A DNA stretch of 33,415 nucleotides from Anaerolineae bacterium (lineage in GTDB: Bacteria > Chloroflexota > Anaerolineae > Epilineales > Epilineaceae), in the NCBI GenBank assembly GCA_029262755.1, contig JAJCYU010000251.1, positions 1-33,415 of the forward strand, in the 5' to 3' direction. Of this stretch, positions 1,121-27,832 are shown piece by piece (the first letter of the stretch is position 1; every line of letters starts with the position of its first letter). Both the position numbers and the translations under genes were made by a program. The notes below the pieces were generated by a model. That model did no database searches and was not told where the DNA came from. It saw nothing but the letters and a program-made list of their open reading frames with translations.

Positions 1121-2356
1121 GTGCAGCGACGCCGATCGCTGAATCGTGCTCGTGAGCGCGTGAACGGCCCTGCGACCACGCCGGGGCCGTCGGCTCGCCT
1201 CCGCGTCGCGTGGGTCGTGGGCGGCCTGCATGCGGGCCCAGACGATCCGTTTGCGCCGTATCTGGCCACGTCGCTACGCGGGCTCGCCAAGCACGCCGAG
1301 GTCGTCGCGTTTCCGCTGCGCTACCCGGTGGCGCAAGTGCCCTATTCGCTCTTCGGAGCGCGCGTGGAACCGCAGTCGATCGGCGACGTGCGCCTGCGCG
1401 AAAGCCCAGCACTTTGGCGGAGCGTGGTTCGATCCATTGTGCAGGCTCACCGGCGCCGGCCCTTCGACCTGGTTCACGCGGTGCAGGCAGCCGAACCGGG
1501 CTTTGTGGCGTCCCTTGCTGCGGCGCGGATCGGACGGCCACTCGTAGCCCAAGTACTCGGGGGCGAGTTGGTCGATCTCGCGGACATCGGCTTCGGTGGC
1601 AAGCAGGACCGTGCGGGCCGATGGTTCGTGGCCTCCACGCTCCGTCGAGCGGCCCGCGTGGTCGTGCTCAGCGACGAGAGTGCCGGTGCCGCCAGGGCCC
1701 GTTTAGGTTCCGCGCGGGCCGATCGGATCCGGATCGCGCCGCTACCGGTTGAGATGGACCGCTTCCGCCCGCGATTGCTCCGAACGCGTCGCGCCCAGCT
1801 GCGCGCGGGAGAGGCTCCGTGTCGGCTTCTTGCGGTGGCCAACTTACTGCCCGTGAAGGATCACGCAACGCTCCTTCGCGCATTCGCGCAACTCGCCGCG
1901 CTTCGACCCGACGTGCGCCTCCATCTGGTCGGTGGTGGGCCGACGCTAGCGGCCCTGCGGCGCCAGGCGAGCGAGCTCGGGGTAGCGGAGCGTGTTCAAT
2001 GGTGGGGCCAAGTGCCGCATGCCGCGGTTCACGTGGCCTTCGCGGGGGCAGACGCCTACGTGTCCTCCAGCCGGCACGAGGCGCAGGGTGTCGCCCTATT
2101 GGAAGCGGCGTCGTGTGGGCTCCCGGTCGCCGCGACCGCCGTCGGCGCGGCGCGGGAGCTGCCGCCGAGCCTCGTGCACCGCTGCCGCCCGGGCAGCGTG
2201 GAAGGCCTTCTCGCCGCCATGGCCGACGCGCTCCAGAGCGCGCCCGCGCCGCGCGCTTCGCGCCGTGCGGTTCGGGATCTCCTGCGACCTAGGTGGAGTG
2301 AAGCTGCGTGCGCACAGCGAATGCTCGCGGTGTGGCGCGAGATCGCGGCATCATAG
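1121..2356 (+). CDS. Glycosyltransferase family 4 (GT-B fold); exact start uncertain
   Basis: N-terminal RVAWVVGGLHAGPDDPFAPY; C-terminal GT4 features LLAVANLLPVKDHATLLRAFAQL...LVGGGP...VQWWGQVPHAAVHVAFAGADAYVSSSRHEAQGVALLEAASCGLPVAATAVG. Confidence 0.85.
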   Translation: MQRRRSLNRARERVNGPATTPGPSARLRVAWVVGGLHAGPDDPFAPYLATSLRGLAKHAEVVAFPLRYPVAQVPYSLFGARVEPQSIGDVRLRESPALWRSVVRSIVQAHRRRPFDLVHAVQAAEPGFVASLAAARIGRPLVAQVLGGELVDLADIGFGGKQDRAGRWFVASTLRRAARVVVLSDESAGAARARLGSARADRIRIAPLPVEMDRFRPRLLRTRRAQLRAGEAPCRLLAVANLLPVKDHATLLRAFAQLAALRPDVRLHLVGGGPTLAALRRQASELGVAERVQWWGQVPHAAVHVAFAGADAYVSSSRHEAQGVALLEAASCGLPVAATAVGAARELPPSLVHRCRPGSVEGLLAAMADALQSAPAPRASRRAVRDLLRPRWSEAACAQRMLAVWREIAAS

Positions 2357-2523
2357 GTCGCGTGCGGGCCGTAGCGCTACGATAGGCCACGCGCGCGACA
2401 CGCGGCTTCCTCGAGCGTGCGATTCCGTCGATTGGGCGGACGCAAACGCCCGCGTGCGGCTTCGCGTTCAGGGTCACACGCTCCACGCCACCGCGAATAC
2501 CTCCTACCGCGGAGCAACCGCAT

Positions 2524-3897
2524 GTGCAGTCCTCGTTCTTGAACAGCTCATCGTCTCCGGAGTGGAATGATCCGCTCTGGTCGCGCGTTGCGTTGCCCTA
2601 CGCACGAGTGGCCCAATGCCTTGGTTTCACCGTCGGAATTCGCACCAACGACCCGCGCGTCCTCGGGTTGTTCGAAAGCGCGTTCGGCCCTGACGTTTCC
2701 GTAACAGGCGCGCCGGATCTGGATCTTGCGGTGACGGCCGATTGTGAACCGGCGGCACGGGCTCGGCCCGCGGCTCCGGGGACGAGCCAAACGGCGCAAG
2801 CGAACAACCTCGACGAGCCAGATCGCCCCGACACGGCGCCGCATGCGCAGCGCGGCGATCCGGATAGCAACACCCAGGACCGCACGCACGGAGCAACAAC
2901 TCTCCGTCCTCCAGGCCCGGAAGACTCGAGCGACAGGAGTCGCATGCCTGCAGGAGATTCGCGCGCGCCCGGCGTATCGTCGTCCCAGCATCATGAGAGT
3001 GAACATCCTGCGACCCGCTCGGACGCGCTGCCGGCGACCCCGCATGCTCCGGGCGCCTCCTTCCACCGGGAACGCAATGGGCTGTTCGTCGCGGGCGACG
3101 ATCGCGGGAGCGTGGTAAGCCTCGATCTGGTCGCGGGCCGGGGAGCGGCCTTCGTCAGCACCGCCACGCCGCCATTCGTCATACGCCAAGTGCTGCTCGA
3201 GTCGCCGGTTTGGCGGCTGGCGACCGCGCGGGGATTGGTGGCATTGCATGCAGCCACGGTCGTGGTGGACGGTGTCGGGCTGCTGCTGCGCGGCGCAGCA
3301 GGCTCCGGCAAATCGACCCTTGCCGCCGCGATGTTGCGCGCAGGCCACCGCGTGACTTCCGACGAAGTGACCTGGTGGGATCCGCGAGGGAATCGTCCTG
3401 TGCTGCGCGGCGGGGCTCGCTGGATCCATGTGGAGCCTAGGTCGGCGCAGGACTTCGACAGGTTCCGCGACCGCCCCGACCACCCCGAAGGTCCGCCGGA
3501 AGATGGCACCGTCGTCGACGTTCGCGGTATCGACGCTCTCGGCGTCGACGTTCGCGGTGTCGCACCCGGCAAGCGAGCCCTTGAGATTCCGTCCGACCTC
3601 GCCGCACCGGTGGTCGAATTCGGCCGGCTGATCTTGCTTCAGCCGCCAGCCGGGGGCTGGACGCAGCACTATGCTGCGGCGGATGCGTCGATTCGCGAGC
3701 TCACGGCCGATGCGGCGCGCGACGGCTTCGACGCGCTCCGCATCCGCGGCGAGGGCTCACAGGAACCCCGATGTTTCGATCGTGCGCGCGACGACCTATG
3801 TCGGGACGGGGCAATGGAACTCAAACTGGGTAGCGTCCCCGCGAACGTGGCGTGTTTGGAACAGATAGCGCAGCAGGTTCGGAAGGCGCGCGCATGA
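2524..3897 (+). CDS. HPr kinase/phosphorylase-like (HprK-related) P-loop protein with a long low-complexity insert; GTG start
   Basis: P-loop GLLLRGAAGSGKSTLAAAMLRAGHRVTSDEVTWWD typical of HprK-like kinases. N-terminal NDPRVLGLFESAFGPDVSV. About 110 aa of T/P/S/H-rich sequence between the N-terminal region and the kinase core. Confidence 0.75.
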   Translation: MQSSFLNSSSSPEWNDPLWSRVALPYARVAQCLGFTVGIRTNDPRVLGLFESAFGPDVSVTGAPDLDLAVTADCEPAARARPAAPGTSQTAQANNLDEPDRPDTAPHAQRGDPDSNTQDRTHGATTLRPPGPEDSSDRSRMPAGDSRAPGVSSSQHHESEHPATRSDALPATPHAPGASFHRERNGLFVAGDDRGSVVSLDLVAGRGAAFVSTATPPFVIRQVLLESPVWRLATARGLVALHAATVVVDGVGLLLRGAAGSGKSTLAAAMLRAGHRVTSDEVTWWDPRGNRPVLRGGARWIHVEPRSAQDFDRFRDRPDHPEGPPEDGTVVDVRGIDALGVDVRGVAPGKRALEIPSDLAAPVVEFGRLILLQPPAGGWTQHYAAADASIRELTADAARDGFDALRIRGEGSQEPRCFDRARDDLCRDGAMELKLGSVPANVACLEQIAQQVRKARA

Positions 3898-5117
3898 GGG
3901 AGCTCCCCCGCAGACGTGACGGTCGGCCCACGCGGGTGGCGCTCGTCCTGCCCTACTACGATCCGGATGCCGGCGACGACCCCTTCGCGGTTTTGGCCCG
4001 CTACCCGACGATTCCGGGAATCGCGGCGGCTCAGGCATCGCAGGGCCTAGACGTCGCGGCGTTCCAGCTCTTTCCGCGCAGGGCCGACCTCGCCTTGGAC
4101 GGCGCGGCCTTCCACTTCGTGCCCTCCGGCCCCGCCGCACGGGGGGCCTCCCGCGCGATGCATCGTGCGTTCCCACGTTATCGGGCGCCGTACTGGGAAG
4201 CCGCAGGGTCGCTTGCGGCCCGGGTGGGCGCGTGGCGTCCGGACGTCGTGCATGCCTTCGGCGCCACGCTCGACCTCAACCTTGCGATGACGGCCGCGAC
4301 GGCGCGTGCCGGAGGCTCGGGGCTGGTCGTTCACTATCATGGAGGTCTTCCGGACGCAGACCCGCTTACCCAGGCGCTGCGACGGCGCACGTTGCGCCGT
4401 GCGGATCGCCTGCTTTTCACGCATCGCGATCAGGCGCAGCCGTGGATTGCCGCCGGCATGGTCCGGCCGGATCGCGTCGCGGAAGTCGTGGAGACCTCGA
4501 CCCACATTCGGCCGATGGCGCGCGCGCGGGCGCAGGCGATCACGGGGATCTTCGGCGATCCCGCCTGCGTGATGGTCGGCCGCCTCCACGCCATCAAGGA
4601 TCCATTGACCGTGCTGACGGCGTTCGCCATCGTCGCCGAGCGACGCCCCTTGGCGACGCTGCATGTCGTGGGACCGGACGGCGGGCTGGCTACGGCGTGC
4701 AGGGCTATTGTGGCCGCTACACCGTCGTTGGTGGGCCGCGTACACGTGCACGGCGCCGTACCGCACACGCACATGCCCGCCATCTACGGCGCGGCCGATC
4801 TGCTACTCCAGGCCAGCCGCCGCGAGTGGAGCGGCCTCTCCGTGCTCGAGGCCATGGCCTGCGGCGTCGTGCCCGTCGTGACCGACATCCCCGCCTTCCG
4901 CGCGATGACCGGCGACGGCCGCTACGGGCGGCTGGTGCCCGTCGGTGACGCCGGCGCGATGGCACGGGCCGTGCTCGATCTCCCGCCCCGCGTTCGCGCA
5001 CCGTTATCACGCGCGGTGGCCGCCTGGTTCCAGCAAGCACTGAGCTTCGATGCGCTCGCCGCTCGTCTGGGCATCGTTTACGACGATGTGCTGCGGGAGC
5101 GCGCCGGTAGAAGCTGA
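3894..5117 (+). CDS. Glycosyltransferase family 4
   Basis: ATG at 3894 overlaps the upstream TGA (ATGA). GT4 motifs VGRLHAIKDPLTVLTAFAIVAERRPLATLHVVGPDG...VHVHGAVPHTHMPAIYGAADLLLQASRREWSGLSVLEAMACGVVPVVTDIPAFR. Confidence 0.85.
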   Translation: MRELPRRRDGRPTRVALVLPYYDPDAGDDPFAVLARYPTIPGIAAAQASQGLDVAAFQLFPRRADLALDGAAFHFVPSGPAARGASRAMHRAFPRYRAPYWEAAGSLAARVGAWRPDVVHAFGATLDLNLAMTAATARAGGSGLVVHYHGGLPDADPLTQALRRRTLRRADRLLFTHRDQAQPWIAAGMVRPDRVAEVVETSTHIRPMARARAQAITGIFGDPACVMVGRLHAIKDPLTVLTAFAIVAERRPLATLHVVGPDGGLATACRAIVAATPSLVGRVHVHGAVPHTHMPAIYGAADLLLQASRREWSGLSVLEAMACGVVPVVTDIPAFRAMTGDGRYGRLVPVGDAGAMARAVLDLPPRVRAPLSRAVAAWFQQALSFDALAARLGIVYDDVLRERAGRS

Positions 5118-5428
5118 GGGGATCCCGACCTGACTAGCGAGACAAGGCAGAGGTCGCGGATCGAACGCGCTAGCGTGAACTCTGGCTGTGTGTTTCCGGG
5201 CATGTCAACCGCGGATTTTGGAAAGCTGCCGGCCGGTCTCCAAGGTGGAAGGCAGCGGCGCCCCGTTCGCCGCGGTCAGCTGCGACCGGTCGATCCCCTT
5301 TTCCTGCGCAGCGAGTCTATGGATGTAGGGCTGCGCAGGGAGCAGTGCTGTGCCGCCCCGCGGCGCGACGTCTGTGTCCGAATCGAATGCAGCAAGCACG
5401 ATGTCCACGACCAAGCGAGCGACAATTC

Positions 5429-7660
5429 ATGAGGCACCGCTGCATAGACGAGTCACCACGCCGCCGATCCAAGATCGGCATTCAACGTCGCCTGCCCCCG
5501 TGCCGGTTGTCCGGTCTCGTGGCGTTTCTCGTGGCTGGAATGGGCGCCTTCGCGGCCCTCTCGCCCCATCCGACAACCGCGCGGGCGGCCGGCGATGGCC
5601 TCGTACTCGAATTCGAGCACGGAGGCGCCCTGAGCGCGTTGGCCACCGACGGATCGTGGGCCTACCTCGTCCAGGGCAGTCGCGTCCACGTGGTCTCGCC
5701 GTCAAACCCGGGGGGCTCGCCGCTTGCAAGCAGCAAGCCGGACTCCCTGTCCAGAGTGAAGGCGGCTGTCGCGCGCGACGGAACGGTCGCGTTAGGCGGT
5801 GACGGGTTGCGCATCTTCCATCACCGGGGGACCGATCTTCGCATCACTGATCAATGGCTGCCGCGGCACGGCATCGAGGCGCTGGCCTGGGCTGGTGACA
5901 GGCTGTGGGTGCTCGGCGACGACGGTCAGGCCCACCGGTTGCGCATCGACGAGGAGGGCACGATCGTGCGCCGTGACCGCTGGGCGCCGACCGCGCCGAC
6001 GTTGGAAACGACAGCGCAGATCTCGGCGCTCGCCCCGTCGCCGAACGGCGAGCTGTTGTTCGCACTTGTGCAGTGGGTCGGTGAAACACAACCCTTCCGC
6101 GACCCACCGGTTCGCTCGGCGGAGATTCTCCAGATCGAGGTCACCTCGGGCACGAACCGGGTGATCGCACGCGCGCCCGCCCAGCGATGGCCTCGGCCGG
6201 GTCTGCTCGCCGGGGACACGTGGGCCATGCTCTATGCGCGCTCCGGCTTCGGCGCGACGCCACAAGCGCAGCTGTTTACGAAAGGACCCGCGACGGGACT
6301 CTCCAGCCAGCTCTTGAGATGGGCGGGGGAGTACGGCACCCAGTCGCTGGCCATGATGGACGACGTGCTATGGCGATTGGACCAGAGCGGACAGCTCTAT
6401 CGACACGCGCGTCTAAGCGCTGTTCAATCACAACCCGTTCCGACGCCCTCCTTTACGGGGGTCTCCGTGTTGGGCATCGGTGCGCGATTGGCCCTACTAA
6501 GCCCGGAGCAGATGTGGTGGCTCGAGGACGATGGTTCGGCCGCGCCCGACGTAGCCCTGGACACCCGCGAGATTGCCGAGGTGGCCGCGACGAAGCATGG
6601 CGCGTGGCTGCGTCGCGGAACCCGCGCGATGGACTTTGTACCCGCTACCGGCCCCGACGGCTGGCTCCTCCCCCCGCCGCACACCGGGCCGACGTACGTC
6701 TATCAACTCTTTGGGGCCGGCGAACGCGTTTATTCTCTTGCCAACGGCGTCGTAGAGATCTATGCCGACCGCAGCCGGGACCGTGGCCGGCTCGAACGCT
6801 TGGCCGGGCTCCCTCAAGCCGGCGACCACCGAACGAGCCTGCTGATGGACGCCGAAGGGGACCGGGTCGTCACCAAGGACTCGTCGGGCACGATCTGGCT
6901 GCAGCGCTCGACGGTCGATGGCCGCCCCGCGCAAGAGCTCTACATGCTGACAAGCGGCGACGTCATCGACGAGCACCTGGACGGCGACCTGCTGTGGCTC
7001 GCAATCACGTCGCGACGTACAACCCGGCTCGAAGGATTCGACATCGCAGGCGTGGGCATTACCGCACCCCGGCAAACGAGCCTTAGCCTGCCCGGCTCCA
7101 CAGCCATCAGCTTCGCCGTCGAGCGCGGGATCGCGCTCGTGGGCCGTGGGCCCATCCTCTCCGCGCTACGCGTCTCCGATCCGAGCCGGCCCAAGGAAGT
7201 CGATGTGCTCGACCTCCCGGGATCGATCGTTCACGTTACCGTGCAGGGACTGATTGCGTGGGTCTACTCCACGGGCTCCGCGTCGGACTATCTGAGCGCC
7301 ATCCAGATCGGCCATGGTGGATCCTTGCACGATCTCGGCACCGTTACGTTGCCGCTCGGAGCGACCGAGATCGCCCTCGCGGCCGACGCCGGCGGCGTGT
7401 GGCTCGTCGCAGATCGGGCGCTCCAACGCTACACCTTCGCAACGCCGCTCGATTCTTCCCCGACCGCCGACCCACGCCCGAGCTCGACGGCGCCGGCGTC
7501 GGCGACACCGACTTCGACCGCGACCGCGCCGGAGGCGACCGCGACGACGGCGCTCCCGACGGCAACGCGCACGCCCACAATGCACCGAGAATTGCGCGTG
7601 TTGCTGCCGTGGCTGGCCCGAGGTGGGGCGTCCGCGCTCGTTCGCTTCGGGACACCATAG
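5429..7660 (+). CDS. Predicted secreted beta-propeller-like protein with T/P-rich linker and C-terminal LPWLARG tail
   Basis: Signal-like segment LSGLVAFLVAGMGAFAALSPHPTTARAA. Repeated propeller-like segments (ALATDGSWAYLVQGSRVHVVSP, ALAWAGDRLWVLGDDGQAHRL). Linker PSSTAPASATPTSTATAPEATATTALPTATRTPT, end RVLLPWLARGGASALVRFGTP. Confidence 0.7.
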   Translation: MRHRCIDESPRRRSKIGIQRRLPPCRLSGLVAFLVAGMGAFAALSPHPTTARAAGDGLVLEFEHGGALSALATDGSWAYLVQGSRVHVVSPSNPGGSPLASSKPDSLSRVKAAVARDGTVALGGDGLRIFHHRGTDLRITDQWLPRHGIEALAWAGDRLWVLGDDGQAHRLRIDEEGTIVRRDRWAPTAPTLETTAQISALAPSPNGELLFALVQWVGETQPFRDPPVRSAEILQIEVTSGTNRVIARAPAQRWPRPGLLAGDTWAMLYARSGFGATPQAQLFTKGPATGLSSQLLRWAGEYGTQSLAMMDDVLWRLDQSGQLYRHARLSAVQSQPVPTPSFTGVSVLGIGARLALLSPEQMWWLEDDGSAAPDVALDTREIAEVAATKHGAWLRRGTRAMDFVPATGPDGWLLPPPHTGPTYVYQLFGAGERVYSLANGVVEIYADRSRDRGRLERLAGLPQAGDHRTSLLMDAEGDRVVTKDSSGTIWLQRSTVDGRPAQELYMLTSGDVIDEHLDGDLLWLAITSRRTTRLEGFDIAGVGITAPRQTSLSLPGSTAISFAVERGIALVGRGPILSALRVSDPSRPKEVDVLDLPGSIVHVTVQGLIAWVYSTGSASDYLSAIQIGHGGSLHDLGTVTLPLGATEIALAADAGGVWLVADRALQRYTFATPLDSSPTADPRPSSTAPASATPTSTATAPEATATTALPTATRTPTMHRELRVLLPWLARGGASALVRFGTP

Positions 7661-7984: not shown

Positions 7985-10702
7985 CTACGCTTTCAACTGC
8001 GCCTGCAACCACGCGACGATTGCCAAAGCGTCCGTGCGCAAGGCCCCGTTCTCGGTGACGCCAGTCCTTGATTGCACGCGACACCACGCGTCGCCCGGAC
8101 GCAGGGTTCGCCCCGACTGCGGCGCGAGCACGAGCCACGGTGCTGTGGCCGGCGGCGAGGGTTCGTCGAGCCTAAAACCGGCCTGTTCGCAGGCGTAGGC
8201 GCCATGACCGTCCACCACGGGCCCGTACCAGCCCGATGCCAGCCGCGGAGTGCGCGCACGCCCAGACCCGACGTGGTGAAGCACCAACTGCGCTCCTACA
8301 AGCGGCATTTCGTGGGCGTCGAGTGACGCGCCATCCGCGTCCGGATCGCGCAGGGAGACGACGTGCCGGGCGAGCATCGGCAACCGTCCGGCAAACAGTT
8401 CCAATTGGGTGTAGGCCGAGACGGATGCGACGAGCCGCGGGTTCACCTCGATCACCCAGTAGGCTCCATCTACGTCCCGTAGCAAATCGACGCCGAAGAA
8501 CCCCCGGTAGCCTTCCGCGCCAAGTCCGGTCCCAATGCGCCGCGCAAGCTCGATTCCAGGCGCCGTGTCGAGTGCTTGCTGCCGGGTGGCGCTCCAATCT
8601 TGACCGCACGAACCGAGGGATTGCAGCGTGAGCGCGGGATGCCCCGTGATTTGTAGGAACGGAGCGCCGACGACGACCCCCCGCGCGGTCACGCACGCGT
8701 TGACCGTCCACGTCTCGCCTTCCAGGCGACGGCTGACGCGCGCGGTCCGGCCGCGCAGGGCATCGCGTGCGGACACGAATAGCGGCTCGTCGTCCACCGG
8801 AAAGGTCTTCAGCCCCGCGTAGCCGCTGGGTCCCTGTACAACCAGACGAGGCCCGAGGAGCGAGCTCAACTGCGCATACGAGCTTGTCGCCAGCTCCACG
8901 GCCGCAGAGGGTGGCAGCGGAAGGCCGAGCTCCGCGCCAATCTCGAGAAAGGCAAGCTTGTTCTCCCACCGGCGAGCGAGCTTCGCCGGCGAAGCAATCA
9001 GGGGCCAGCCCATGTCCCGGCAGCGCCGCTCGATGGCATGCGAACTCTTGAAGACCAGGATTGCTGGCGCAGGAGCCTCGGCCAAGAACGCTTCGGTGGC
9101 GGGGGCCTGTAAGACATCCAGCGCGTTACGGCCTGCCGGGCGACGTGTTGCGGGCGGTGAGTTGGACCCCGACGAGGTAGACGGCGATGGGGGAGACGGC
9201 GTCGAAGCATTTGGAGGGTGCGTGCCGTCGCGCGCGGCAGGGCTCGCCGCGGCGGTGGCATTGGGTGCAGCAAGAGGCGCGGCCTCCGGGTCCGCGCTGG
9301 GCGGCGGATCGGCCTCCAGCGCGAGCACCGCGTGTCCCGCCGATCGCAGCAACCGGCCCGCCGGTGTGTCATCCAAGACCGCGAAACGCATGCTCGGCAG
9401 CAACGACTCCAAACCGATCCCATAGTGCGTGTCGGGTCCGACGAAGCTAAGACCGGCAACCTGCCGCGATGCCCACGCGGAGAAGGAAGCAACGTTCCGC
9501 ACAACACCGGCATCCGAAGGCTCCGCGCCGGGCTCATTACGTTCGTCGCCACTCCCGAAGGAGGGCACGGATGAGTCTTGAGAGGCTTGCGGCCACGCGT
9601 CCATCGCCTGCAGGGCAGCGTCCACGTCCTCGACGAAACGTTCGCTCAGTTCGGCCATGCCCTGTACTTGGTCAATAGCGCGAGCGTGATCGTGCGACTC
9701 GTCTTGCGAATCGCCTGCGCGGCGCGGCACATCGACACGTCGGGCGCCGGTGATCACGACCGCGACGTTGCGCAGCCCACGTTCGCGCGCGGCCCGGCCG
9801 GCTGCGGCAAGTGCGGCCGCGCCTTCGAGCGACGAATCGATGCCGGCGTCCAAGAGCAGACGTCCGGCGGCTTCGGCTTCCGCGTCGGTGATGACCCAGC
9901 CCGATCCACCCGTGGAACGCAAGAAGCGCTTCGCTTCCCCGACCCTGCGCGTCTTGCGTGCGCCGAGCTGCCCGACGCGGCTCTGTCGTTGGGCCGGTTC
10001 GAGCACCCGCTTATCGAACTCGCCGGCGACCGGCTGGGCCCCTGCGCCCTGCACGGCGTGGAGCTGCGGTATCGCGAACGTCGGGGCGTGTTCGGGTCTG
10101 TTCGCTGCCGACCGAACCATGGCGGCGAATTCCGGGCGTTGCCAGGCGCGGCCGATGGCCACCAAGGAGGTTGCGCTCGAGACGAACGTGAAGACCGCCT
10201 CGACGGGCGGCTCGATGGCGAGAAGCTCCCAGCCGAGCGTCTGAAACCCTTCCGGCGCCGCTGGATCCGTGGACGGTCGCAGGTTGTGTAAACCCCGTGC
10301 AGCCGCGACATCGCGGGCGAGCGTCAGCGCGCGCTCGGAAACTAGCAACAAGGCGCCTTCCGCCGTGATGCGCGCTCGTTTCGCCGGCGAGGTCCGGGGC
10401 GATACGAACGCCGCCACCGGGATGCCGGCGGCCCGCCCGTAGCGCGCCGTGGCGATCGCGGCGTTACCGGAGGACGAAATGACAAGCCACCGCGGCGGCG
10501 GATCGGCACTGGCCAACAGCGAAACCTGATAGGCCGCGCCACGGTCCTTGTGCGATCCCGTCGGGTTGCGGTCTTCCCGCTTGAGCACGAGCCGCGCGAG
10601 GCCGAGTTGCGCCGCAATCGCGGGCACATCCTCCGCCGGTGTATCTCCCTCTCCGAGGCTGAGACGGCGGCCGGGTGGCGGCGCATGCGCAAACCCCTGC
10701 AC
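7985..10702 (-). CDS. Fusion: N-terminal threonine-synthase-like fold-type II PLP enzyme + C-terminal ATP-grasp ligase; GTG start
   Basis: PLP part: LSLGEGDTPAEDVP, KREDRNPTGSHKDRGAAYQ (catalytic Lys), SSSGNAAIATARYG, VITDAEAEAAGRLLLDAGIDSSLEGAAALAAAG. ATP-grasp part: RWENKLAFLEIGAELGLPLPPS...LVVQGPSGYAGLKTF...GAEGYRGFFGVDLLRDVDGAYWVIEVNPRLVASVSAYTQLE. Confidence 0.85.
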   Translation of the reverse strand: MQGFAHAPPPGRRLSLGEGDTPAEDVPAIAAQLGLARLVLKREDRNPTGSHKDRGAAYQVSLLASADPPPRWLVISSSGNAAIATARYGRAAGIPVAAFVSPRTSPAKRARITAEGALLLVSERALTLARDVAAARGLHNLRPSTDPAAPEGFQTLGWELLAIEPPVEAVFTFVSSATSLVAIGRAWQRPEFAAMVRSAANRPEHAPTFAIPQLHAVQGAGAQPVAGEFDKRVLEPAQRQSRVGQLGARKTRRVGEAKRFLRSTGGSGWVITDAEAEAAGRLLLDAGIDSSLEGAAALAAAGRAARERGLRNVAVVITGARRVDVPRRAGDSQDESHDHARAIDQVQGMAELSERFVEDVDAALQAMDAWPQASQDSSVPSFGSGDERNEPGAEPSDAGVVRNVASFSAWASRQVAGLSFVGPDTHYGIGLESLLPSMRFAVLDDTPAGRLLRSAGHAVLALEADPPPSADPEAAPLAAPNATAAASPAARDGTHPPNASTPSPPSPSTSSGSNSPPATRRPAGRNALDVLQAPATEAFLAEAPAPAILVFKSSHAIERRCRDMGWPLIASPAKLARRWENKLAFLEIGAELGLPLPPSAAVELATSSYAQLSSLLGPRLVVQGPSGYAGLKTFPVDDEPLFVSARDALRGRTARVSRRLEGETWTVNACVTARGVVVGAPFLQITGHPALTLQSLGSCGQDWSATRQQALDTAPGIELARRIGTGLGAEGYRGFFGVDLLRDVDGAYWVIEVNPRLVASVSAYTQLELFAGRLPMLARHVVSLRDPDADGASLDAHEMPLVGAQLVLHHVGSGRARTPRLASGWYGPVVDGHGAYACEQAGFRLDEPSPPATAPWLVLAPQSGRTLRPGDAWCRVQSRTGVTENGALRTDALAIVAWLQAQLKA

Positions 10703-10740
10703 GAATCGCCAGATGCCGATCTCGTTCCTATGCGAAGTCG

Positions 10741-11187
10741 CTACTTCTCCTCCTCCTCGAAGAGGTCGAGCAATAGCGGCTCGCGTTGGATGACCTCAAG
10801 CTCCGCACCGCAGTGGGCGCAGTACAGCACCTCACCCAGCTCGACGTCGCCGGCAACCGGCACGCCTTCCCCGCAGGCGGGACACGGTTGGTCCGCCCCG
10901 GTGGGCACAGCGGGCACCTCGGTTCCAGAAGAAACGGGCGGTGCTTCGAACGAAGCGGCAGTAGCCGTCGAATCGGCTGTTCCGGATCCATCCCCCGTCG
11001 CGATGGACGTAGTCGGGTGGCTGGAAGAGGTCGGAGTGTCGGCTGGAGAGTGACCGGTTTTCGAGGGTGTCTCGTGCGTCACGGGATCCTCCGTGTTTCG
11101 GGTGGCGGCGGGACCGGCCGGATTGGGTTTGGTGCGGGGTCGCTGATGACCCTTGCGGAAGAACAGGCGGATCCAAGTGGGGATCAT
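10741..11187 (-). CDS. LysW/AmCP-like zinc-ribbon carrier protein with ~95-aa low-complexity N-terminal extension and EEEEK C-terminus
   Basis: C-terminal domain CPACGEGVPVAGDVELGEVLYCAHCGAELEVIQREPLLLDLFEEEEK follows the LysW pattern CPxCG..ELGE..C..CGAELEV...PL.L...E. ATG at 11187 preceded by GGAGG (ggaggattgagATG), 1 nt after the Mur ligase TGA. Confidence 0.8.
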   Translation of the reverse strand: MIPTWIRLFFRKGHQRPRTKPNPAGPAATRNTEDPVTHETPSKTGHSPADTPTSSSHPTTSIATGDGSGTADSTATAASFEAPPVSSGTEVPAVPTGADQPCPACGEGVPVAGDVELGEVLYCAHCGAELEVIQREPLLLDLFEEEEK

Positions 11188-11188
11188 C

Positions 11189-12871
11189 TCAATCCTCCGC
11201 GTCATGGGCGACGGCGCTTGAGGCGGTAGCTTCGCGCAACAGAGCTCGAAAGCCGCGCTCGCCACCACCGTCTACGTAGAAACGTCGAAAGAAGTACGGG
11301 CATGCCGGCGATAGCAACACGATCTGTCCCGGACGCGCCTTGTCGACAACACTGCGAATCGCCGGCGGCAGATCCTCGAATCGATCGATGGCCGGGGCAA
11401 CGACACGATCATGATTGCTGCCCGACTTCGCGATCAACGCCTCCACCGCCGCTGCTATACGCGCACCGCCTGCCCCAGGCAACACGACCAATCGTACGAC
11501 ACGTTTGTGGATCTCCGCCGCGAGGTCGGCCAGCGCGAGCCCCTTGTCGTCTCCGCCTACGATCAGCACGATCCGGTCGCCCAGAGCGCGCAGCGCGGCG
11601 ATGGTGGCCTGGGGGGTCGTCGCGTTCAGGTCGTCGTAGTAGGCCACATCGTCGGCGCCCCACACGAACTGGATGCGATGGCGCAGACCCCGATAGGCGC
11701 GCAGTCCTGCATCAATCGCGCGCAGATCCGCGCCCGCGAGGCGCGACGCGAGCGCCGCGGCGAGCACGTTGCTCTCGTTATGATCGCCCGGTAAGCGGGG
11801 CAAGGCCGGAAGGGTCAGCCGTTCTACGGGCCCGACCGGACTGGCGCGCAGATGGAGCACGCCGTCCACGAGCCACGCCGCGCAATGCGCCTGCCGGCCC
11901 GTGTCATCGCCGTGCCCGTCGATCGTTTCGCGCGCCGCTATCCCTATCGCGCCATCGTCTTCCCCGTCAACGGTGCTCATCCCGTGTCCTTCGTCCGAAG
12001 CGCCGACCTCACCGGGCGTGCCGGAACCGGTCCGGCGCGGCGCCGCGCGAGCGAACAACAGCGCGTGCCCGGGCGCATGGTTCGCGAACCCGGCGGTGAC
12101 GGCATCGTCCGCGTTCAGCACCGCGAAGCCGGAGGCCGGCTGGGCGTCCAGGAGACGGCGCTTCACGGCGGCATAGGCATCGAAGGAGTCGGCGTGCTCG
12201 TCCAAGTGGTTGGGCAGCACGTTGGTCACGACCGCGACGTCCGCACCCTGTCCGGGGGCCAGTTGAAGTCCGCGCAGATGGCGGTTGCTGACCTCGAGAA
12301 CAAGCCAGTCCGTGGCGGACATCTGGTCCATTCGGTCCAAAACCTGCACGCTGCGTCGCTCGTTGCCTGCGTACCAAACGCGCAGCTTCGCCTGCAGCAA
12401 CATGGACTCGACGAGCCGACTCGTCGTGGACTTACCGTTGCTGCCGGTCACCGCAAGGATCCGCGCCGGCGCCAAGCCGAAGTAGAGGTCCATGATGCCG
12501 CGAAGGGGAAGTCCGGCATCGATCAGGGGGGCCAACGCCGCCACGTTACGCGGATACAGGTACCAGGCCTGTCCGGCGAAGATCACCTCCGCGTCCTCGA
12601 TCCCCTCCAAGTAGGCATTGCCCAAACGGCGGGTGAGCGGCAGGCTGGACAACTCCGTCCATAGGCTCGCTCGCTGCGCCTTCGGCAGTCCCACGTGGGA
12701 GCGCGAAAACGCACGTCGGAGCGGTTCGCCTTCTTCGACATCGTGAACCGTGATATCGCGGGCGCCGCGCTCCCATAGGAATCGGGTCACGGCCGTGCCC
12801 TCGCTGCCAGCGAGCCCAACCACGTGGATGCGGCGGCCAAGCAGGTCGCCCAGGGTGTCGGCGTTGATCAC
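11189..12871 (-). CDS. MurD-like Mur ligase; GTG start
   Basis: Mur ligase motifs TGSNGKSTTSRLVE, VVTNVLPNHLDEHADSFDAYAAVKRRLL, LNATTPQATIAALRAL, LIVGGDDKGLALADLA, VLLSPACPYFF...GERGFRALL. GTGA overlap with the upstream NlpC/P60 gene. Confidence 0.88.
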   Translation of the reverse strand: MINADTLGDLLGRRIHVVGLAGSEGTAVTRFLWERGARDITVHDVEEGEPLRRAFSRSHVGLPKAQRASLWTELSSLPLTRRLGNAYLEGIEDAEVIFAGQAWYLYPRNVAALAPLIDAGLPLRGIMDLYFGLAPARILAVTGSNGKSTTSRLVESMLLQAKLRVWYAGNERRSVQVLDRMDQMSATDWLVLEVSNRHLRGLQLAPGQGADVAVVTNVLPNHLDEHADSFDAYAAVKRRLLDAQPASGFAVLNADDAVTAGFANHAPGHALLFARAAPRRTGSGTPGEVGASDEGHGMSTVDGEDDGAIGIAARETIDGHGDDTGRQAHCAAWLVDGVLHLRASPVGPVERLTLPALPRLPGDHNESNVLAAALASRLAGADLRAIDAGLRAYRGLRHRIQFVWGADDVAYYDDLNATTPQATIAALRALGDRIVLIVGGDDKGLALADLAAEIHKRVVRLVVLPGAGGARIAAAVEALIAKSGSNHDRVVAPAIDRFEDLPPAIRSVVDKARPGQIVLLSPACPYFFRRFYVDGGGERGFRALLREATASSAVAHDAED

Positions 12872-13950
12872 GAGCTGGTGTGGCCGCTCGGATTGCCATT
12901 CACGCGACCGAGCCCCGGCTCCCCTCCCGATGAGACCGGAGCCGCGTCGGTGTCACGCGGCAAGGGCCGCAGACCCTCCGGAAAGCGACGGGCGGCGCGC
13001 AGGCCGTAGCGGGCAAGAAAGTCGTCCATGGGCTCGACGACGACGGCAGCATGGTCAAGTCCAGCGTGGGCCACCGAAAGGGTCCCACGTGGCGGCTCGT
13101 CCTGCGGTGCGTGGCCCTCGGAGAGGCCGACAAGAGCCGCTCCGACCCACGGCGCCGGGGGCAGCACGAGCGCGGTATGCGAGACGCCGCGCTCGAGATG
13201 GTGCAGCAGGAGCAAATCGCCCATGGCCCAGGACTCGCGCGGCACCCGGGCGCCGAAGCGCGTCTGATCGCTCGAATGGCGCGGGAGCCCAATGCCCTGG
13301 GCTGCGCGGAATACCTTCTGCGTCAGCGCGGAACAATCGATGCCGCTGCGCAGGCGGCCCCCGAGACGATACGGGGAGCCAAGCCAAGGGGCGAGCGCAA
13401 CCAACCAATCCGTCGCGTCCGCGGGGCGGGCGCTTCCCGCCCATCCGTCTCGCCATTCGGCTACGCTGGGCGGACGATCCGCGCTTGGATCGAGATCGGT
13501 CACGCTGGCGGCTTCACACCACCCGACGGTCCGATCCGCGAGCTCGACCGCGAGCCAGCCCGCCGAGGGCCAGAGCCGCCGAATGGGCGGCTCATCGGCC
13601 GACCACTGGGTGGCCAGGTCCCCGTTGGGCGTTGCGTGCACGTCCACGTGCGTTGCACGCGGCGCAATCCAGACGGCGTCGTCGAGTTCGGTCAGCGCGC
13701 GCACACGGACACGCGCCGCATCCGGCTCGTAGCCGCCGACGCGCAGACCGCTCGCCAACGACCGTTCCAGGGCCGCACGCTGAGACGGCACGAGCACGTC
13801 GCCCACAACCCAGGCGCCGCCGTGTCCGTCTGATTGCACGTCGAGCTCCGCCACGACCACCCCGTGTTGCTCCCGCCAGCGGGCGAGCAGATCGCGCAGG
13901 GTGTCGCGCACGTGGGCAATGAGGGCCGCTTCGTGCACGGTGGGCTCCAT
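12868..13950 (-). CDS. NlpC/P60 family cysteine peptidase with SH3-like region and an unassigned N-terminal domain
   Basis: [46 protein letters not shown]...[21 protein letters not shown] is a classical NlpC/P60 catalytic region (Cys in GIDCSAL, His in VSHTALVL). SH3-like segment [22 protein letters not shown]. Confidence 0.85.
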
Positions 13951-14197
13951 CACTGTTCGCGGGGTCGAGTTCCGGCAGTGCCGGAATCGCGGTGAGAGGG
14001 CGCCAAGTATAGGGCCGCCTTGCGCTCGCGCACCAGCCGAAGCAGGTTGCCGCAGCCTGACCGGGCCCTGCGATCCTGCTAGAATCCAGGGTCCGTTCCC
14101 AGCCCAGCCCAAGGCGGTCAGCATACCGTCGTCCCGGCCCGGAGCGCGCAGCCCGCGGGCGGCGCCCGCGCTCGTGCCCCGACCAAGGAGTCGCACC

Positions 14198-17428: not shown

Positions 17429-20413
17429 ATGTTGTTCTCTGCCCCCTTGGCTCGCACCTTCGTGGTTGTCGGCGTCGTGGTGATCGCCCTGTCTGTATGG
17501 GGCGCTCCGTCCGCAGCGCAGCCTGCAGCGCCGTTTTCCTGGGTCTGGATCGAAGGGGAGGACGCGCAGCGGCATGATTTCAACGGCCACTCTTGGTACT
17601 GCTGTGACGGCGTCCGGGCCGACCTCCTATCACCCGGAATTCCGGAGCAACGGGACGGCGCCTGGCTGGCGCACTATGCGAACGACGGGCAGACCGCGAC
17701 GGCCTCGTGGGATGTGGACGTACCTACGAGCGCCTCGTACACCGTTTGGGCGCGCGTCTCAAGCTGGAACGTCGGCCTGTGGTGGCAGATGGACGGCCAG
17801 ACGCGGCGCGCACACGACGCCGCCGCGGACCCGCGCGAGTACCTGAACCTGCTCGAGCCGGGCCGAATCGACATCCGCTTTCTATCCTGGCAACGGCTGG
17901 GCGATACCGAGTTAGAGGGCGGCGCTCATCAACTAACCCTGGGGCTGGAAGGACATCCGAGCCGCAACGAGGGCCAAGAAGTGCATGGTGGCGTGGACGC
18001 CATCGTGCTGGTCGCCGCAGACGCGCTCTGGGCGCCTTCGGGCGCGATGCAGCCACCCACCGGCAACGAAGCAGCGCCGCAGCGCGATACTTGGTTCCCG
18101 CTCGTACCATCGGACGATCCGTTCTCGGATGCCTCCGTGACCGATGCCGGCGGATTGCTGCATGCGCCGGCCGGTCGACACGGAGCGCTTCGGCCAGACG
18201 GTCGCTCCTTCCGGTTTGAAGACGGCACGCCCGTGAAATTTTGGGGCGTCAACGCGCACCCGCCCGCCACGGAGGAGCTCGCCCAACGCCAGGCTCGTTG
18301 GTTGGTCAAGCAGGGTGTCAACCTCGTCCGCCTCCACCCGGTGCAATCGGTCGTCGGCCTGCTCGAACGCGACCCGGCTACCGGAAACCGGCGGCTGAAT
18401 CCCGAGCACCTCGACAAGCTCGATCGCTGGTTCGCGGTGCTCAAGGAACACGGCATCTACATGACGTGGTCGCCCGTGTATCCGCACATCATCACCGCCG
18501 ATGACGGCTATCCGGTCAACCTCTACAACGAGCTGCAGGATGCCAACACGTGGAATATGCCTCCGGGGACTAGCGGCAAGTCGAGCTCCGGAGTCGTGAA
18601 CGTAATGCGACCCCTTCAAGATGCCGAATGGGCGTGGCTAAAGCCGCTGCTCGAGCACGTCAACCCCTACACGGAGCTGCGCTACGTCGACGATCCGGCG
18701 TTGGCACTCCTAGAGACCCACAACGAGGACTCGATCTTCTGGCATTGGCCGCTCAACAGCTTGCAGGGCGGCGAGTTGCCGGGCCACCTGGCCGCGCTGC
18801 AGGGCATGTGGGCCACGTGGCTCCAAGATCGCTACGCAAGCGACGCCGCGCTGCTGGCCGCTTGGGGACCACCCGGCAGTGGCAGCCGACCGGGCGACGG
18901 CTTGGGCAACGATACGATGGCGATCTACGGCGCCTGGGAGTTCGAAGCAGACGGCCCGCCGCAACATCCGATGGAACAGGCTCGTTTGGGCGATTGGATC
19001 CGCTTCCTTGCCGAGACGCAGGCAGGCTACTTCGCGCGACGCGAAGCGGAGGTACGTGCGCTCGGCTACCGCGGCGTCACTGTGACCACCGCCTGGATGT
19101 CCGGCGGACCCGCTGCTCACCTGGCCAACGTTTGGACCGACGACGTGGCCGAGGCGATCGATCGGCACAGCTACTTCGGAGGTGGCGAGGGCGGGCACAG
19201 CGTGCGGCCGGGCACGGTCAACAACGGTTCACACCTCGGCGCACCGGGCAGCGGCATCTTGCAACGCGGCCTCGAGCAGGTGGAGGACAAGCCCTTCCTG
19301 CTCTCGGAATGGACGCAGTCGCCGCCCAACCAATGGAAGGCGGAGATCGCTCCTTTGTTCGCGTTCTACGGCATGGGTTTGCACGGCTGGGATGCGTCGA
19401 TGCACTTCTCCGCCGATCAAGACGGACGTATGGGCGGTGGATGGCCCGACGAGAATAGCTACGTCTCCGAAACTCCCCACTACGCGGGCCAGTTTCCGGT
19501 TCTCGCGCGCAGCGTCCACCGCGGCGACTTCGACGAAGGGCCGCTCGCTGCCGCACGGCGCTTGGCCGTCGACGACATTTTCCGCGGCGTGGACGCGTTG
19601 ACCCGGGACACGCCATCGGGCGGCTGGGCCGGCGATGCTCCCGGAGGAGCCCTGGCGACGCCGAGAGAGGTCTTCGCGATCGGCCGCACCACGCTCGATA
19701 TCGGCGACGACCTTCCGCGCAGCGAGCGCTTGGACTGGTCGAGCTATTGGGACGAGTCCGCGCGAAGCATCCGCAGCGCAACCGATCAGCTGGAGTGGGA
19801 CTACGGACGCCGCGTGGTCCAGGCGCGTAGCCCGCGCACCCAGGGCGTCATCGGCTGGGCAGGCGCCGACGGTGGGGAAACGTGGTCGCTGCCGGCGCTC
19901 GAGGTCACGGTCCGGACACCCTTCGTGAGCCTGTTGCTGACGAGCCTCGATGATCGCGTGCTTGTAGAGAGCGGACATATCCTGGTCACGGCCCTCGCGC
20001 GCGACCAGCAGACAGGGGCCCGCTACAGCGCGGACGGCTCCCGGCTCGAGGCTCTGGGCGGCCCGCCGCTGCTACTGGAGCCCGTGCAAGCGGATCTCCG
20101 CTTCACCGGTCCGTCCATCACCTCAGCCCATCGCCTTGACATCCACGGTGTGCCCATAGGCGAACCGATTGAACATGACGCGGACTCCGTGACCCTCGAC
20201 GGCCGGTGGGCGAGCTATCAATACGAGATCCGTCGTGACGTGGCGCCGACGGAATCGACGCCGTCCGCATCCCCGGTCCCGAGCCCCATCCCTTCACGCG
20301 AGCCGACCCGTGGTCCGGCGCCCACGGCTTTAGCGACGCAACCGCCCACGGGCGACATGCCTCCGCTGGCTCTGCCTTGGCTTGCTCGAGGCTCGGGGGC
20401 GGCGCTGCGCTAA
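17429..20413 (+). CDS. Secreted glycoside-hydrolase-like (clan A/GH5-like, TIM-barrel) protein with N-terminal CBM-like module and C-terminal LPWLARG tail
   Basis: Signal peptide-like MLFSAPLARTFVVVGVVVIALSVWGAPSAAQPA. FRFEDGTPVKFWGVNAHPPATEELAQRQARWLVKQGVNLVRLHPV...HLDKLDRWFAVLKEHGIYMTWSPVYP...LLETHNEDSIFWHW...PFLLSEWTQSPPNQW. C-terminus PPLALPWLARGSGAALR. Confidence 0.75.
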   Translation: MLFSAPLARTFVVVGVVVIALSVWGAPSAAQPAAPFSWVWIEGEDAQRHDFNGHSWYCCDGVRADLLSPGIPEQRDGAWLAHYANDGQTATASWDVDVPTSASYTVWARVSSWNVGLWWQMDGQTRRAHDAAADPREYLNLLEPGRIDIRFLSWQRLGDTELEGGAHQLTLGLEGHPSRNEGQEVHGGVDAIVLVAADALWAPSGAMQPPTGNEAAPQRDTWFPLVPSDDPFSDASVTDAGGLLHAPAGRHGALRPDGRSFRFEDGTPVKFWGVNAHPPATEELAQRQARWLVKQGVNLVRLHPVQSVVGLLERDPATGNRRLNPEHLDKLDRWFAVLKEHGIYMTWSPVYPHIITADDGYPVNLYNELQDANTWNMPPGTSGKSSSGVVNVMRPLQDAEWAWLKPLLEHVNPYTELRYVDDPALALLETHNEDSIFWHWPLNSLQGGELPGHLAALQGMWATWLQDRYASDAALLAAWGPPGSGSRPGDGLGNDTMAIYGAWEFEADGPPQHPMEQARLGDWIRFLAETQAGYFARREAEVRALGYRGVTVTTAWMSGGPAAHLANVWTDDVAEAIDRHSYFGGGEGGHSVRPGTVNNGSHLGAPGSGILQRGLEQVEDKPFLLSEWTQSPPNQWKAEIAPLFAFYGMGLHGWDASMHFSADQDGRMGGGWPDENSYVSETPHYAGQFPVLARSVHRGDFDEGPLAAARRLAVDDIFRGVDALTRDTPSGGWAGDAPGGALATPREVFAIGRTTLDIGDDLPRSERLDWSSYWDESARSIRSATDQLEWDYGRRVVQARSPRTQGVIGWAGADGGETWSLPALEVTVRTPFVSLLLTSLDDRVLVESGHILVTALARDQQTGARYSADGSRLEALGGPPLLLEPVQADLRFTGPSITSAHRLDIHGVPIGEPIEHDADSVTLDGRWASYQYEIRRDVAPTESTPSASPVPSPIPSREPTRGPAPTALATQPPTGDMPPLALPWLARGSGAALR

Positions 20414-21846: not shown

Positions 21847-24102
21847 CTACGGCTTGCCGGGCGAATCGGGCAGGTCGGGCACGGCGGCAGACGTTGGGAG
21901 TGCGATCTCGATCTGTCGTGCAATCCACGGCATATCCCGGCGGTCGAGCACGCCGGGTGTTGGTCCCTCGCTCTGCGCTCCAGCAGGCATCGTGGCGTCG
22001 AGTTGATCCGGCGCTAGCGGCGCCTGCTGGCTCCACGCAAGCGGGGAGGCGAGACCGAGGCGAGCGCTGATATGTTGCAGATCGTCCAGATCAACGCCGC
22101 CGTCGCGGTCCAAGTCGGTGCAAGGCACGTCGAGTGGGCCGCTCCGCCGGAACCTCGCGGCGACGGCGGAGAGGTCGCCGACGTCGATGCGTCCATCCGC
22201 GTTTACATCGCCCCGGGTCAGGATCGCAGGCGCGATCTGCATACGCTGGCCGGCGCGCAGCGGGATGAGGCCGCCGTCGATGGACAAGCCGCAGGCCATC
22301 GTTGCGGTGATCGGATAGCGGTCGGGAGGCAAGCGGTCGAAGAAGTAGCGACCCGTCGGACCGGTCACGGTGCTGAGCGGTCCGAGGCGAACCACAGCAC
22401 CGCGCACAGGACCTTGGTCGTCAAACAACACGCCGCTGGCGCTCGCGGTATCGCGCGGACAAGGAGCGCTCTTCACACGGGCAGCAACGACCTCCAGCCG
22501 GCGGCATGCGTTCTCGCCCATCGTCACGCCGTCGATCTCGACGAAGCCGCCCAGCATCGCGTCGAGACGTTGGTTGCGTGACGTGACGGTCAGTCCGGGC
22601 GTGCCGTCGCATGCGAGGAGTTGGTATCCGTCGCCGTGACAGTTGTGCAGAGAAGGCACGTATTGCAGCCAACCCGAGGTTGTAAGCTGCGCACGGTTGA
22701 CGGGCGGCAAGGGCAAGCTCGCGAGTAGCAGGCGCCGCGGTTGGCTCACGCCCTCGACAGTGGGGCGATCGGGGAACGAATCCCACACGGCGGTCACGGC
22801 GCCGAGGCCGTCGAGCGCGACGGCCTGACGCCGCGCGTCGATCAGGGCGGGCGCACGGTCGAGGCGCAATGGCTCGTCCGCGAGTCGCTCATCAACCCAG
22901 GCGCCGTATAGGCGTGCGCCCGGATCCCTCGTCTCCCCCCAAGCCACGAACGCGCGGCCGCCGCCACCGCCCAACGCAATGTCCAGCAGCGCACCGCGCG
23001 CCGGGCGATAGCGAATGCGGTCGAGCTCCCACGGGCCGGCATCGTCCGGCCGGCTCGCAACCCGCACCGTTCCGCCATCGCCCTCGTCCACCCATGCCGC
23101 GACGAGGCGCCCTGTGCCGTCCGCCACCACATGCGGTGACCGCTGCAAACCGCCCACGGTTCGCGCTAGAGATTCGTCGGGCCACCACGCATCTCCGCGG
23201 CCGACGTGACTTCCTGCGGGTAGTCGGGCGGCAAAGATTCCGCTGCGCCGGCCACGCGTATCTCGCCAGATCGCGTGAAGATCGCCCGACACGTTCATGG
23301 CCAGGTCGATATCGCGTTGGTCGCCCGGCGCGTGCGCAGCGTGAACAAGAACGGACGGTGTCCACCGACCATCGGGTTCGCGCATAGCGTGGCGTAGATC
23401 GGCGTTTTCACCGCGCAAGTCCGTCCAGGCCGCATGCACCCTCCCCCATGGATCGGCGACCAACGCGGGCTTCCACTGAGGCGCGGCTACGGCGTCGACA
23501 TATTCGGGCTTCGAGAACGAGGATTCGTTGGTTCGCATCACCGCATGAGCAATGGCCGCCCGCTCTAGGAGCGGCAGCTCGAAGAGCACGTGCACGGCGC
23601 CGTCGCTGTCGAGCACAACGACGGGCGCCGCAGCCGGACCGGAGACGACCGTGATGGGTGGCAGCCACGTCCGCGCCCATGGCCGGTGCGCATAGCGAAT
23701 AGAAGCGCCTGGCGCATTCGAGGCAGCCGTCCCGGCCGACCGCTCCTGCCACACGGCGTGCAAGCCGCCCGCATGATCGACCCAGAGATCAACCTCTTCC
23801 TGCCCCCGCCCAGACGCGGACTCGACCAGTGGTTGCGGGAACGACCATCGAGAACTGTCTTGGGCCAGGACTACGGCGCGCTCGTCTGCTTGGAGCGAAC
23901 CGAACAGTGTCGCGGCAAACGAGGCAGCGGCGACCCAGGACCAGAGCGCTCGAGACATGGGGCCGCGTCGCCGCGCCGCGCCGACTCGCGATCGCGAACG
24001 TGACCGTGAATGGGAACGGGATGGGGTACGGGAACGTGAACGGGCTCGACCGGTCATGACCTGGACCGAAGCCAGGATGGGAACCCGCTCTGGATTCGAC
24101 AC
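21847..24102 (-). CDS. Secreted protein with BNR/propeller-like repeats, dockerin type I-like domain and C-terminal MPWIAR tail
   Basis: Dockerin-like GDVNADGRIDVGDLSAVAARFRRSGPLDVPCTDLDRDGGVDLDDLQHISARLG. Repeats such as LDSDGAVHVLFE, ADPWGRVHAAWTDLRGENADLRHA, NVSGDLHAIWRDTRGRRSGIFAA. GTG at 24102 preceded by GGAGG; a shorter ATG start at 23958 would give MSRALWSWVAAASFAATLFGS. Confidence 0.75.
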   Translation of the reverse strand: MSNPERVPILASVQVMTGRARSRSRTPSRSHSRSRSRSRVGAARRRGPMSRALWSWVAAASFAATLFGSLQADERAVVLAQDSSRWSFPQPLVESASGRGQEEVDLWVDHAGGLHAVWQERSAGTAASNAPGASIRYAHRPWARTWLPPITVVSGPAAAPVVVLDSDGAVHVLFELPLLERAAIAHAVMRTNESSFSKPEYVDAVAAPQWKPALVADPWGRVHAAWTDLRGENADLRHAMREPDGRWTPSVLVHAAHAPGDQRDIDLAMNVSGDLHAIWRDTRGRRSGIFAARLPAGSHVGRGDAWWPDESLARTVGGLQRSPHVVADGTGRLVAAWVDEGDGGTVRVASRPDDAGPWELDRIRYRPARGALLDIALGGGGGRAFVAWGETRDPGARLYGAWVDERLADEPLRLDRAPALIDARRQAVALDGLGAVTAVWDSFPDRPTVEGVSQPRRLLLASLPLPPVNRAQLTTSGWLQYVPSLHNCHGDGYQLLACDGTPGLTVTSRNQRLDAMLGGFVEIDGVTMGENACRRLEVVAARVKSAPCPRDTASASGVLFDDQGPVRGAVVRLGPLSTVTGPTGRYFFDRLPPDRYPITATMACGLSIDGGLIPLRAGQRMQIAPAILTRGDVNADGRIDVGDLSAVAARFRRSGPLDVPCTDLDRDGGVDLDDLQHISARLGLASPLAWSQQAPLAPDQLDATMPAGAQSEGPTPGVLDRRDMPWIARQIEIALPTSAAVPDLPDSPGKP
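23987..24052. repeat. Degenerate hexanucleotide repeat encoding an Arg-Ser run
   Basis: cgcgat cgcgaa cgtgac cgtgaa tgggaa cgggat ggggta cgggaa cgtgaa cgggct. On the minus strand it reads RARSRSRTPSRSHSRSRSRSR. Confidence 0.75.
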
Positions 24103-24226
24103 GAAGACCTCCGTGTAGGACATCGGCGAACGCGTATGCTGGCGCAACGTCCTGGCTCAGGTGCGATTCGTGCGGATAGATGGCACGACGTTGTGGGTCT
24201 GCGTGCACCAAAGATGGAGCGAGCCT

Positions 24227-27786: not shown

Positions 27787-27832
27787 CAGCCGCGTTCCAC
27801 GTTGGGCGAATGCTGCACGCGATCCGCCCCGA

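Follow-up and report, generated by a model that had tools for sequence, protein, structure and literature searches.

A LysW-type carrier cassette as a probable substitute for MurI and MurD in some Chloroflexota

Introduction

The supply of D-glutamate (D-Glu) by MurI (or by a D-amino acid transaminase) and its ligation by MurD are, to our knowledge, treated as near-universal steps of cell wall synthesis. One described alternative was found, the MurD2/MurL pathway of Xanthomonas, which replaces the D-Glu genes and in which Glu197 and Arg358 of MurD2 set the choice of L-Glu (PMC8788868). Here we analysed a 33,415-nucleotide stretch (the window), which is contig 251 (JAJCYU010000251.1) of the 5.06-Mb, 84% complete draft genome of an Anaerolineae bacterium. 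At positions 7,985 to 13,950 it carries a four-gene cassette, consisting of an NlpC/P60 peptidase, a MurD-like ligase, a LysW-like carrier and a fusion of a pyridoxal phosphate (PLP) enzyme with an ATP-grasp domain, which probably replaces MurD and MurI in these Chloroflexota.

Amino-group carriers attach their substrate at a terminal Glu. In PEARL pathways an amino acid is built on a peptide scaffold and then released, and PylC, the pyrrolysine ligase, is an ATP-grasp enzyme acting on the epsilon-amine of lysine; both offer an analogy in the way the cassette would work and are not homologous to it as a system. In MurD, K348 and T321 bind one carboxylate of D-Glu mimics, and S415 and F422 the other (PMC3527612). 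The S1 site of the peptidase YkfC binds gamma-D-Glu, and its Asp256 reads a free N-terminal L-Ala (PMC2954226).

The cassette resembles MurD2/MurL in that MurI and MurD would be replaced where D-Glu genes are missing, and in having a diverged MurD-like ligase within a linked set. However, the Xanthomonas pathway has no carrier, PLP enzyme, second ligase or peptidase, while the cassette has no MurL-like operon gene and neither Glu197 nor Arg358. With the LysW and ArgW pathways it shares a PF21344 carrier with an acidic tail, an ATP-grasp partner and, presumably, release by a peptidase. Unlike in those pathways, the usual partners LysX, LysZ, LysY, LysJ and LysK were not found among the operon genes, as an earlier note on this DNA had said; the ATP-grasp domain is carbamoyl-phosphate-synthase/PRK06524-like rather than LysX-like, and a Mur ligase and a PLP enzyme stand in place of the LysW partners. 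A true LysX/LysW pair was ruled out by the carrier tail and the ATP-grasp family. Judged from the sequences, the combination matches no known system and would be a new one; four of its parts (carrier, ligase, peptidase and PLP enzyme) have the fold of their nearest family but lack one of the features that define it. The earlier note had called the operon a candidate new one, and a literature search covering LysW with Mur ligases, LysW with ATP-grasp enzymes, glutamate racemase in Chloroflexi, and carriers together with D-glutamate found no prior description of the four-gene system and no paper connecting LysW-type carriers to Mur ligases or to the cell wall (subscription papers were outside its scope).

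Results

Open reading frame (ORF) calling and reading of the junctions in the window gave four tightly coupled minus-strand genes:

12868..13950, minus strand: NlpC/P60 cysteine peptidase (PF00877) with SH3b-like region, 360 aa
11189..12871, minus strand: MurD-like ligase, 560 aa, the sole MurD-like gene found in the genome, with a remodelled gamma-carboxylate loop
10741..11187, minus strand: LysW-like zinc-ribbon carrier, 148 aa, with a long N-terminal extension and the C-terminus FEEEEK
7985..10702, minus strand: PLP/ATP-grasp fusion (whole gene), 905 aa, following the LysW-like gene after a 38-nt gap
9668..10702, minus strand: PLP fold-type II domain of the fusion, residues ~1-345, threonine-synthase-like fold with PLP lysine K52 and SSSGNA
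7985..9505, minus strand: ATP-grasp domain of the fusion, residues ~400-905, with invariant RRxENK and EVNxRL

The coupling was as the earlier note described it: the NlpC/P60 and Mur ligase genes overlap at GTGA, the junction description of the LysW-like carrier gene (11187-10741) carries GGAGGATTGAGATG, and the 38-nt gap precedes the fusion gene. The make-up given in that note was borne out by profile for the carrier, the two amide-ligase folds, the PLP enzyme and the NlpC/P60 peptidase. The PLP/ATP-grasp fusion is not general; it is peculiar to the window's genome, since the two are separate genes in every other genome read.

A search across genomes found the neighbourhood conserved both in the window's family and in another class (distribution counts refer to Chloroflexota genomes, and the phylum sample comprised 400 genomes). 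The five functions (NlpC/P60, MurD-like, LysW-like, PLP and ATP-grasp) recur in Ardenticatenales bacterium SJ541, a metagenome-assembled genome (JADYYS010000030.1; Chloroflexota by taxonomy) from the same family as the window's genome, and in family f99 of another Chloroflexota class, which was found by a phylum search with a two-row Mur alignment. In SJ541, the gene order and the divergent aconitase gene are the same as in the window, and the proteins are 47-57% identical (ATP-grasp part, 44%); PLP and ATP-grasp are encoded by two genes that overlap, and a glycosyltransferase-like gene comes after them. The f99 loci carry the same functions, and where NlpC/P60 was unmatched the contig was cut or the match weak; ten further f99 loci had the same neighbours as far as their contigs extend. 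Both groups have the LysW-like gene placed between those for Mur and PLP, with an inversion in f99:

L098-L105, e.g. L099:9516-9770, minus strand: inverted carrier gene in f99, its 3' end overlapping the Mur 3' end on the other strand

The diverged Mur was found at E<1e-210 in 18/18 f99 genomes, and the sister families gave ordinary MurD scores only. In the phylum sample the ATP-grasp family occurred in the same 14 genomes as the diverged Mur, plus one weak match at 1e-11. A single-protein query (P0003) against genome contigs gave no match, the alignment-based scan returned SJ541 only, and a plasmid search for the cassette found none. The gene order shared with SJ541 and the recurrence of the module in another class are more than chance. 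An ordinary MurD that happens to lie beside unrelated genes was rejected, as the five functions keep together and, the weak match aside, no other genome of the sample has the ATP-grasp.

MurI was not detected in any of the 14 cassette genomes of the first test, nor in any of the 18 f99 genomes; overall, none of 20 cassette genomes had it. In f99's class it was present in 77/92 genomes of the sister families vs 0/18 of f99 (Fisher p=5e-12, no phylogenetic correction). It is unlikely that MurI was overlooked through incomplete assemblies, with 0/20 in cassette genomes against 77/92 in relatives of similar quality. Nor was a MurD-like gene other than the operon ligase seen in any of the ten cassette genomes examined. 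There no other gene came near the operon Mur as a MurD match, the runners-up scoring ~100 bits or less; in the four genomes where these were identified, they were MurC, MurF, MurE, MurT-like and cyanophycin-synthetase-like proteins. MurC, MurE and MurF were present in all four genomes checked (G000, G002, G529 and G522), and MurB and Alr in G000 and G002. With MurI and ordinary MurD missing and the other mur genes present, the pathway lacks, as far as tested, only the supply and ligation of residue 2, and the cassette most likely serves this stem residue. The small-molecule or protein-tail product considered in the earlier note is therefore not favoured. No D-amino-acid transaminase scored above cut-off in cassette genomes; there were generic class IV aminotransferases only, one copy each in G002, G730 and G734. 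In known bacteria the MurT/GatD pair amidates the alpha-carboxylate of D-Glu, and a MurT/GatD-like pair in two f99 cassette genomes favours D-Glu (a D-isoglutamyl-type residue) at stem position 2.

As a separate observation, G017, G452 and genus g392 were without MurI although they have no cassette. G001, from the window's family and 81% complete, showed no MurI and no strong match to MurD or to the cassette Mur, which may reflect incompleteness or another route.

The window's ligase matched PF08245/PF02875 and, with 201 bits, the murD profile TIGR01087 (cut-off 212 bits); the others scored 178-204 bits and SJ541 213, leaving nine of ten genomes below the cut-off. A 58-sequence tree placed the 16 operon Murs in one clade (support 100/100) that adjoined MurDs of other families in the window's order (97/95), and the MurDs of family f74, from the same class as f99, lay far from it. 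This placement suggests that the cassette spread horizontally between Chloroflexota classes. In E. coli MurD numbering, the catalytic N138, E157, H183 and K198 and the amino-acid-site K348 and T321 are kept in 16/16 operon Murs. Mur fold, catalytic lysine, Mg site, K348 and T321 are those of canonical MurD, and the place in the pathway is presumably the same. Unlike canonical MurD, which works with MurI, the operon Mur is without the S415/D417 gamma-carboxylate loop: all 16 have Pro in place of A414 and Gly or Tyr in place of S415, and in all of them D417 is deleted together with the residue after it. S415 is kept in 39/39 ordinary MurD relatives. Since K348 and T321 are kept and S415 and D417 lost, the operon Mur probably still recognises the amino acid's alpha-carboxylate but not its gamma-carboxylate, as would be expected if that carboxylate is amide-bound to the carrier.

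The carrier matched PF21344 (LysW; E=4.6e-12 in the window, 1.2e-12 in a homologue) and has a zinc-ribbon fold with two CxxC pairs, of which C102/C105/C123/C126 are invariant. Every operon carrier that was read closes with [D/E]EEK, the terminal lysine being invariant, whereas EDWGE terminates 30/30 of the LysW proteins that scored best in the host's class. It is therefore likely that the chemistry is not that of amino-group carriers. The carrier-dependent system proposed in the earlier note fits insofar as two amide ligases, a PLP enzyme and a releasing gamma-glutamyl-type peptidase are combined in a way unlike known LysW pathways; its LysW chemistry, with the amino group on a C-terminal Glu, does not agree with the terminal lysine. 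The host also has a second LysW-like zinc ribbon on the 5.5-kb contig 358 (L042:663-1037), with a long Asp/Glu-rich tail ending in neither EDWGE nor EEK, a response-regulator-like ORF alongside and no cassette neighbours.

The peptidase matched PF00877 (E=1e-14), and no hydrophobic signal segment was seen in it. Its catalytic residues Cys206, His258 and His295 are invariant in 7/7 sequences, as are the S1-site residues Asp205, Ser207, Arg224 and Ser226, which correspond by motif to Asp237, Ser239, Arg255 and Ser257 of YkfC. It is like B. subtilis YkfC in combining an SH3b-like region with NlpC/P60, in having no signal peptide and in its gamma-D-Glu S1 residues. In contrast to YkfC, the equivalent of Asp256, the signature for a free N-terminal L-Ala, is His or Asn in 7/7. 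With the S1 residues kept and Asp256 lost, the enzyme likely acts on a gamma-D-glutamyl bond, though not that of free murein peptides; a gamma-D-Glu-Lys link to the carrier would be a fitting substrate. A YkfC recycling enzyme was rejected, as the S2 signature is absent.

The PLP part matched PF00291 (PALP) over residues 15-319 (E=7e-47) and has the family lysine (GSHK; K52) and an invariant SSSGNA. It shares fold-type II and the PLP lysine with threonine synthase and with serine and aspartate racemases. Its model (predicted local distance difference test, pLDDT, 84) matched threonine synthases best in PDB and Foldseek, and its profile also matched aspartate racemase 5ybw (8e-13), though threonine synthases matched better. 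It differs from this family in falling far under the equivalog cut-offs (best NCBIfam threonine synthase profile, 72.8 bits vs 303), in its own SSSGNA motif and in an altered PLP-phosphate loop. The ATP-grasp half was weak in the window protein (PF02655, E=0.0014; PRK06524, 2.5e-28) and clear in homologues (PF02655 up to 8e-9), and the Mg-binding EVNxR(L) and RRxENK are invariant. Foldseek placed its model with biotin-carboxylase-type ATP-grasps (E to 1e-15, template modelling score ~0.55), which fixes the superfamily only, because the model confidence was moderate (pLDDT 64). The nearest solved relatives by sequence were carbamoyl-phosphate synthase and, over a short stretch, 8yi6, listed as an L-propargylglycine-L-glutamate ligase.

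The operon promoter likely lies upstream of the peptidase gene, in an arrangement that is divergent in SJ541 as well:

13951..14197, no strand: intergenic stretch that separates the operon from the divergent aconitase gene, putative location of the operon promoter

Elsewhere in the window, tRNA-queuosine mannosyltransferase-like, YbbR-domain and DAC (c-di-AMP cyclase) genes stand in a row at 24227-27888 (minus strand), the latter two forming a CdaA/CdaR-like module. A 672-aa ORF at 30276-32294 (minus) has a bactofilin-like stretch (PF04519, 2.5e-6), and at 1121-5117 (plus) a 457-aa protein with an HPr-kinase-C-like stretch lies between two group 1 glycosyltransferases. Large ORFs at 5345-7660 (plus), 17429-20413 (plus), 21847-24147 (minus) and 28992-29996 (minus) had no Pfam match at the limits used.

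Discussion

The distribution in two separate lineages, the presence of the neighbouring pathway genes and the residue changes of the ligase all speak for a replacement of MurD and MurI. On balance, we favour a cassette that acts as the substitute by supplying and installing stem residue 2, most likely D-Glu, in four steps. The ATP-grasp would activate the gamma-carboxylate of L-Glu and join it to the epsilon-amine of the carrier's invariant C-terminal lysine; the PLP enzyme would reach the free alpha-amine and alpha-carboxylate and epimerise the tethered Glu to the D form; the MurD-like ligase would couple the alpha-amine of the tethered Glu to UDP-MurNAc-L-Ala; and the NlpC/P60 peptidase would cut the product free of the carrier, the last two steps being possibly reversed. 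A tethered gamma-carboxylate in the third step would explain why the alpha-carboxylate residues are kept and the gamma-carboxylate site is rebuilt. We infer this order as the simplest scheme with a role for each protein, and it may err in detail; the exact carrier-tethered chemistry is proposed tentatively. With the same caution we suggest as a whole that D-Glu is made and installed while tethered by its side-chain carboxylate to the carrier's terminal lysine, and that the cassette, a self-contained unit, passed between classes and took the place of MurI and MurD.

Several points weigh against this proposal. Threonine synthase is the nearest fold match of the PLP enzyme, whose PLP-phosphate loop is atypical and whose racemase activity is a guess from sequence and model; the substrate of the ATP-grasp cannot be told from sequence. 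The carrier lysine as attachment site rests on its invariance and the known bond preference of NlpC/P60, and the peptidase could be a recycling enzyme of the ordinary kind. The absence of MurI and MurD is provisional, since every cassette genome is a draft assembly (G000 is 84% complete). MurI is also missing from 15/92 genomes of f99's class without the cassette and from G017, so its loss has other solutions, and a class IV aminotransferase that escaped recognition could supply D-Glu.

One rival survives best, though we regard it as unlikely: the cassette would build and install on the carrier a residue 2 other than plain D-Glu (e.g. a beta- or gamma-modified glutamate) by threonine-synthase-like replacement chemistry. 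The kinship to threonine synthase and the rebuilt side-chain pocket of the Mur ligase agree with it, but the ordinary MurE and MurF, together with the MurT/GatD-like genes in two genomes, imply a D-isoglutamyl-type residue. It is improbable that the Mur is an L-Glu-adding, MurD2-like enzyme, with an unlinked MurL-type epimerase making the D form and the carrier, PLP enzyme and ATP-grasp as accessories. Where a genome lacks D-Glu genes, MurD2/MurL has been proven as a replacement (PMC8788868), and the operon Mur shares with MurD2 Pro at 414, mostly Phe at 416 and the lack of K319. However, ordinary MurDs of Chloroflexota commonly have Phe at 416 too, the residues by which MurD2 chooses L-Glu (Glu at 182 and Arg at 348 in E. 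coli numbering) are Asn and Lys in 16/16 operon Murs, the operon holds nothing MurL-like, and this reading would leave the four remaining genes without an explanation. Equally improbable is a stand-alone glutamate racemase, with the carrier, ATP-grasp and NlpC/P60 serving next to a diverged MurD as a unit for scaffolding, regulation or recycling. Fold-type II PLP enzymes do include serine and aspartate racemases, 5ybw was matched and SSSGNA puts a serine before Gly; yet the ATP-grasp and carrier are strictly co-inherited with Mur, and free D-Glu does not require the changed gamma-carboxylate site. Although LysW-type carriers are known to serve natural-product pathways in Streptomyces, a secondary-metabolite or protein-tail modification operon in hosts with an unrecognised MurD and MurI is very improbable given the mutual exclusion with MurI, the sole MurD-like gene and the presence in 18/18 genomes of one family.

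If the proposed replacement of MurI and MurD is true, the cassette would be a further, carrier-using route beside MurD2/MurL and, should the tethered chemistry hold as well, the first carrier-protein-dependent step in peptidoglycan precursor synthesis. Carrier-protein chemistry would then extend from amino-acid biosynthesis to essential envelope synthesis. The split specificity of the operon Mur offers a handle on the substrate choice of Mur ligases, and the cassette would explain how these MurI-less Chloroflexota build their walls.

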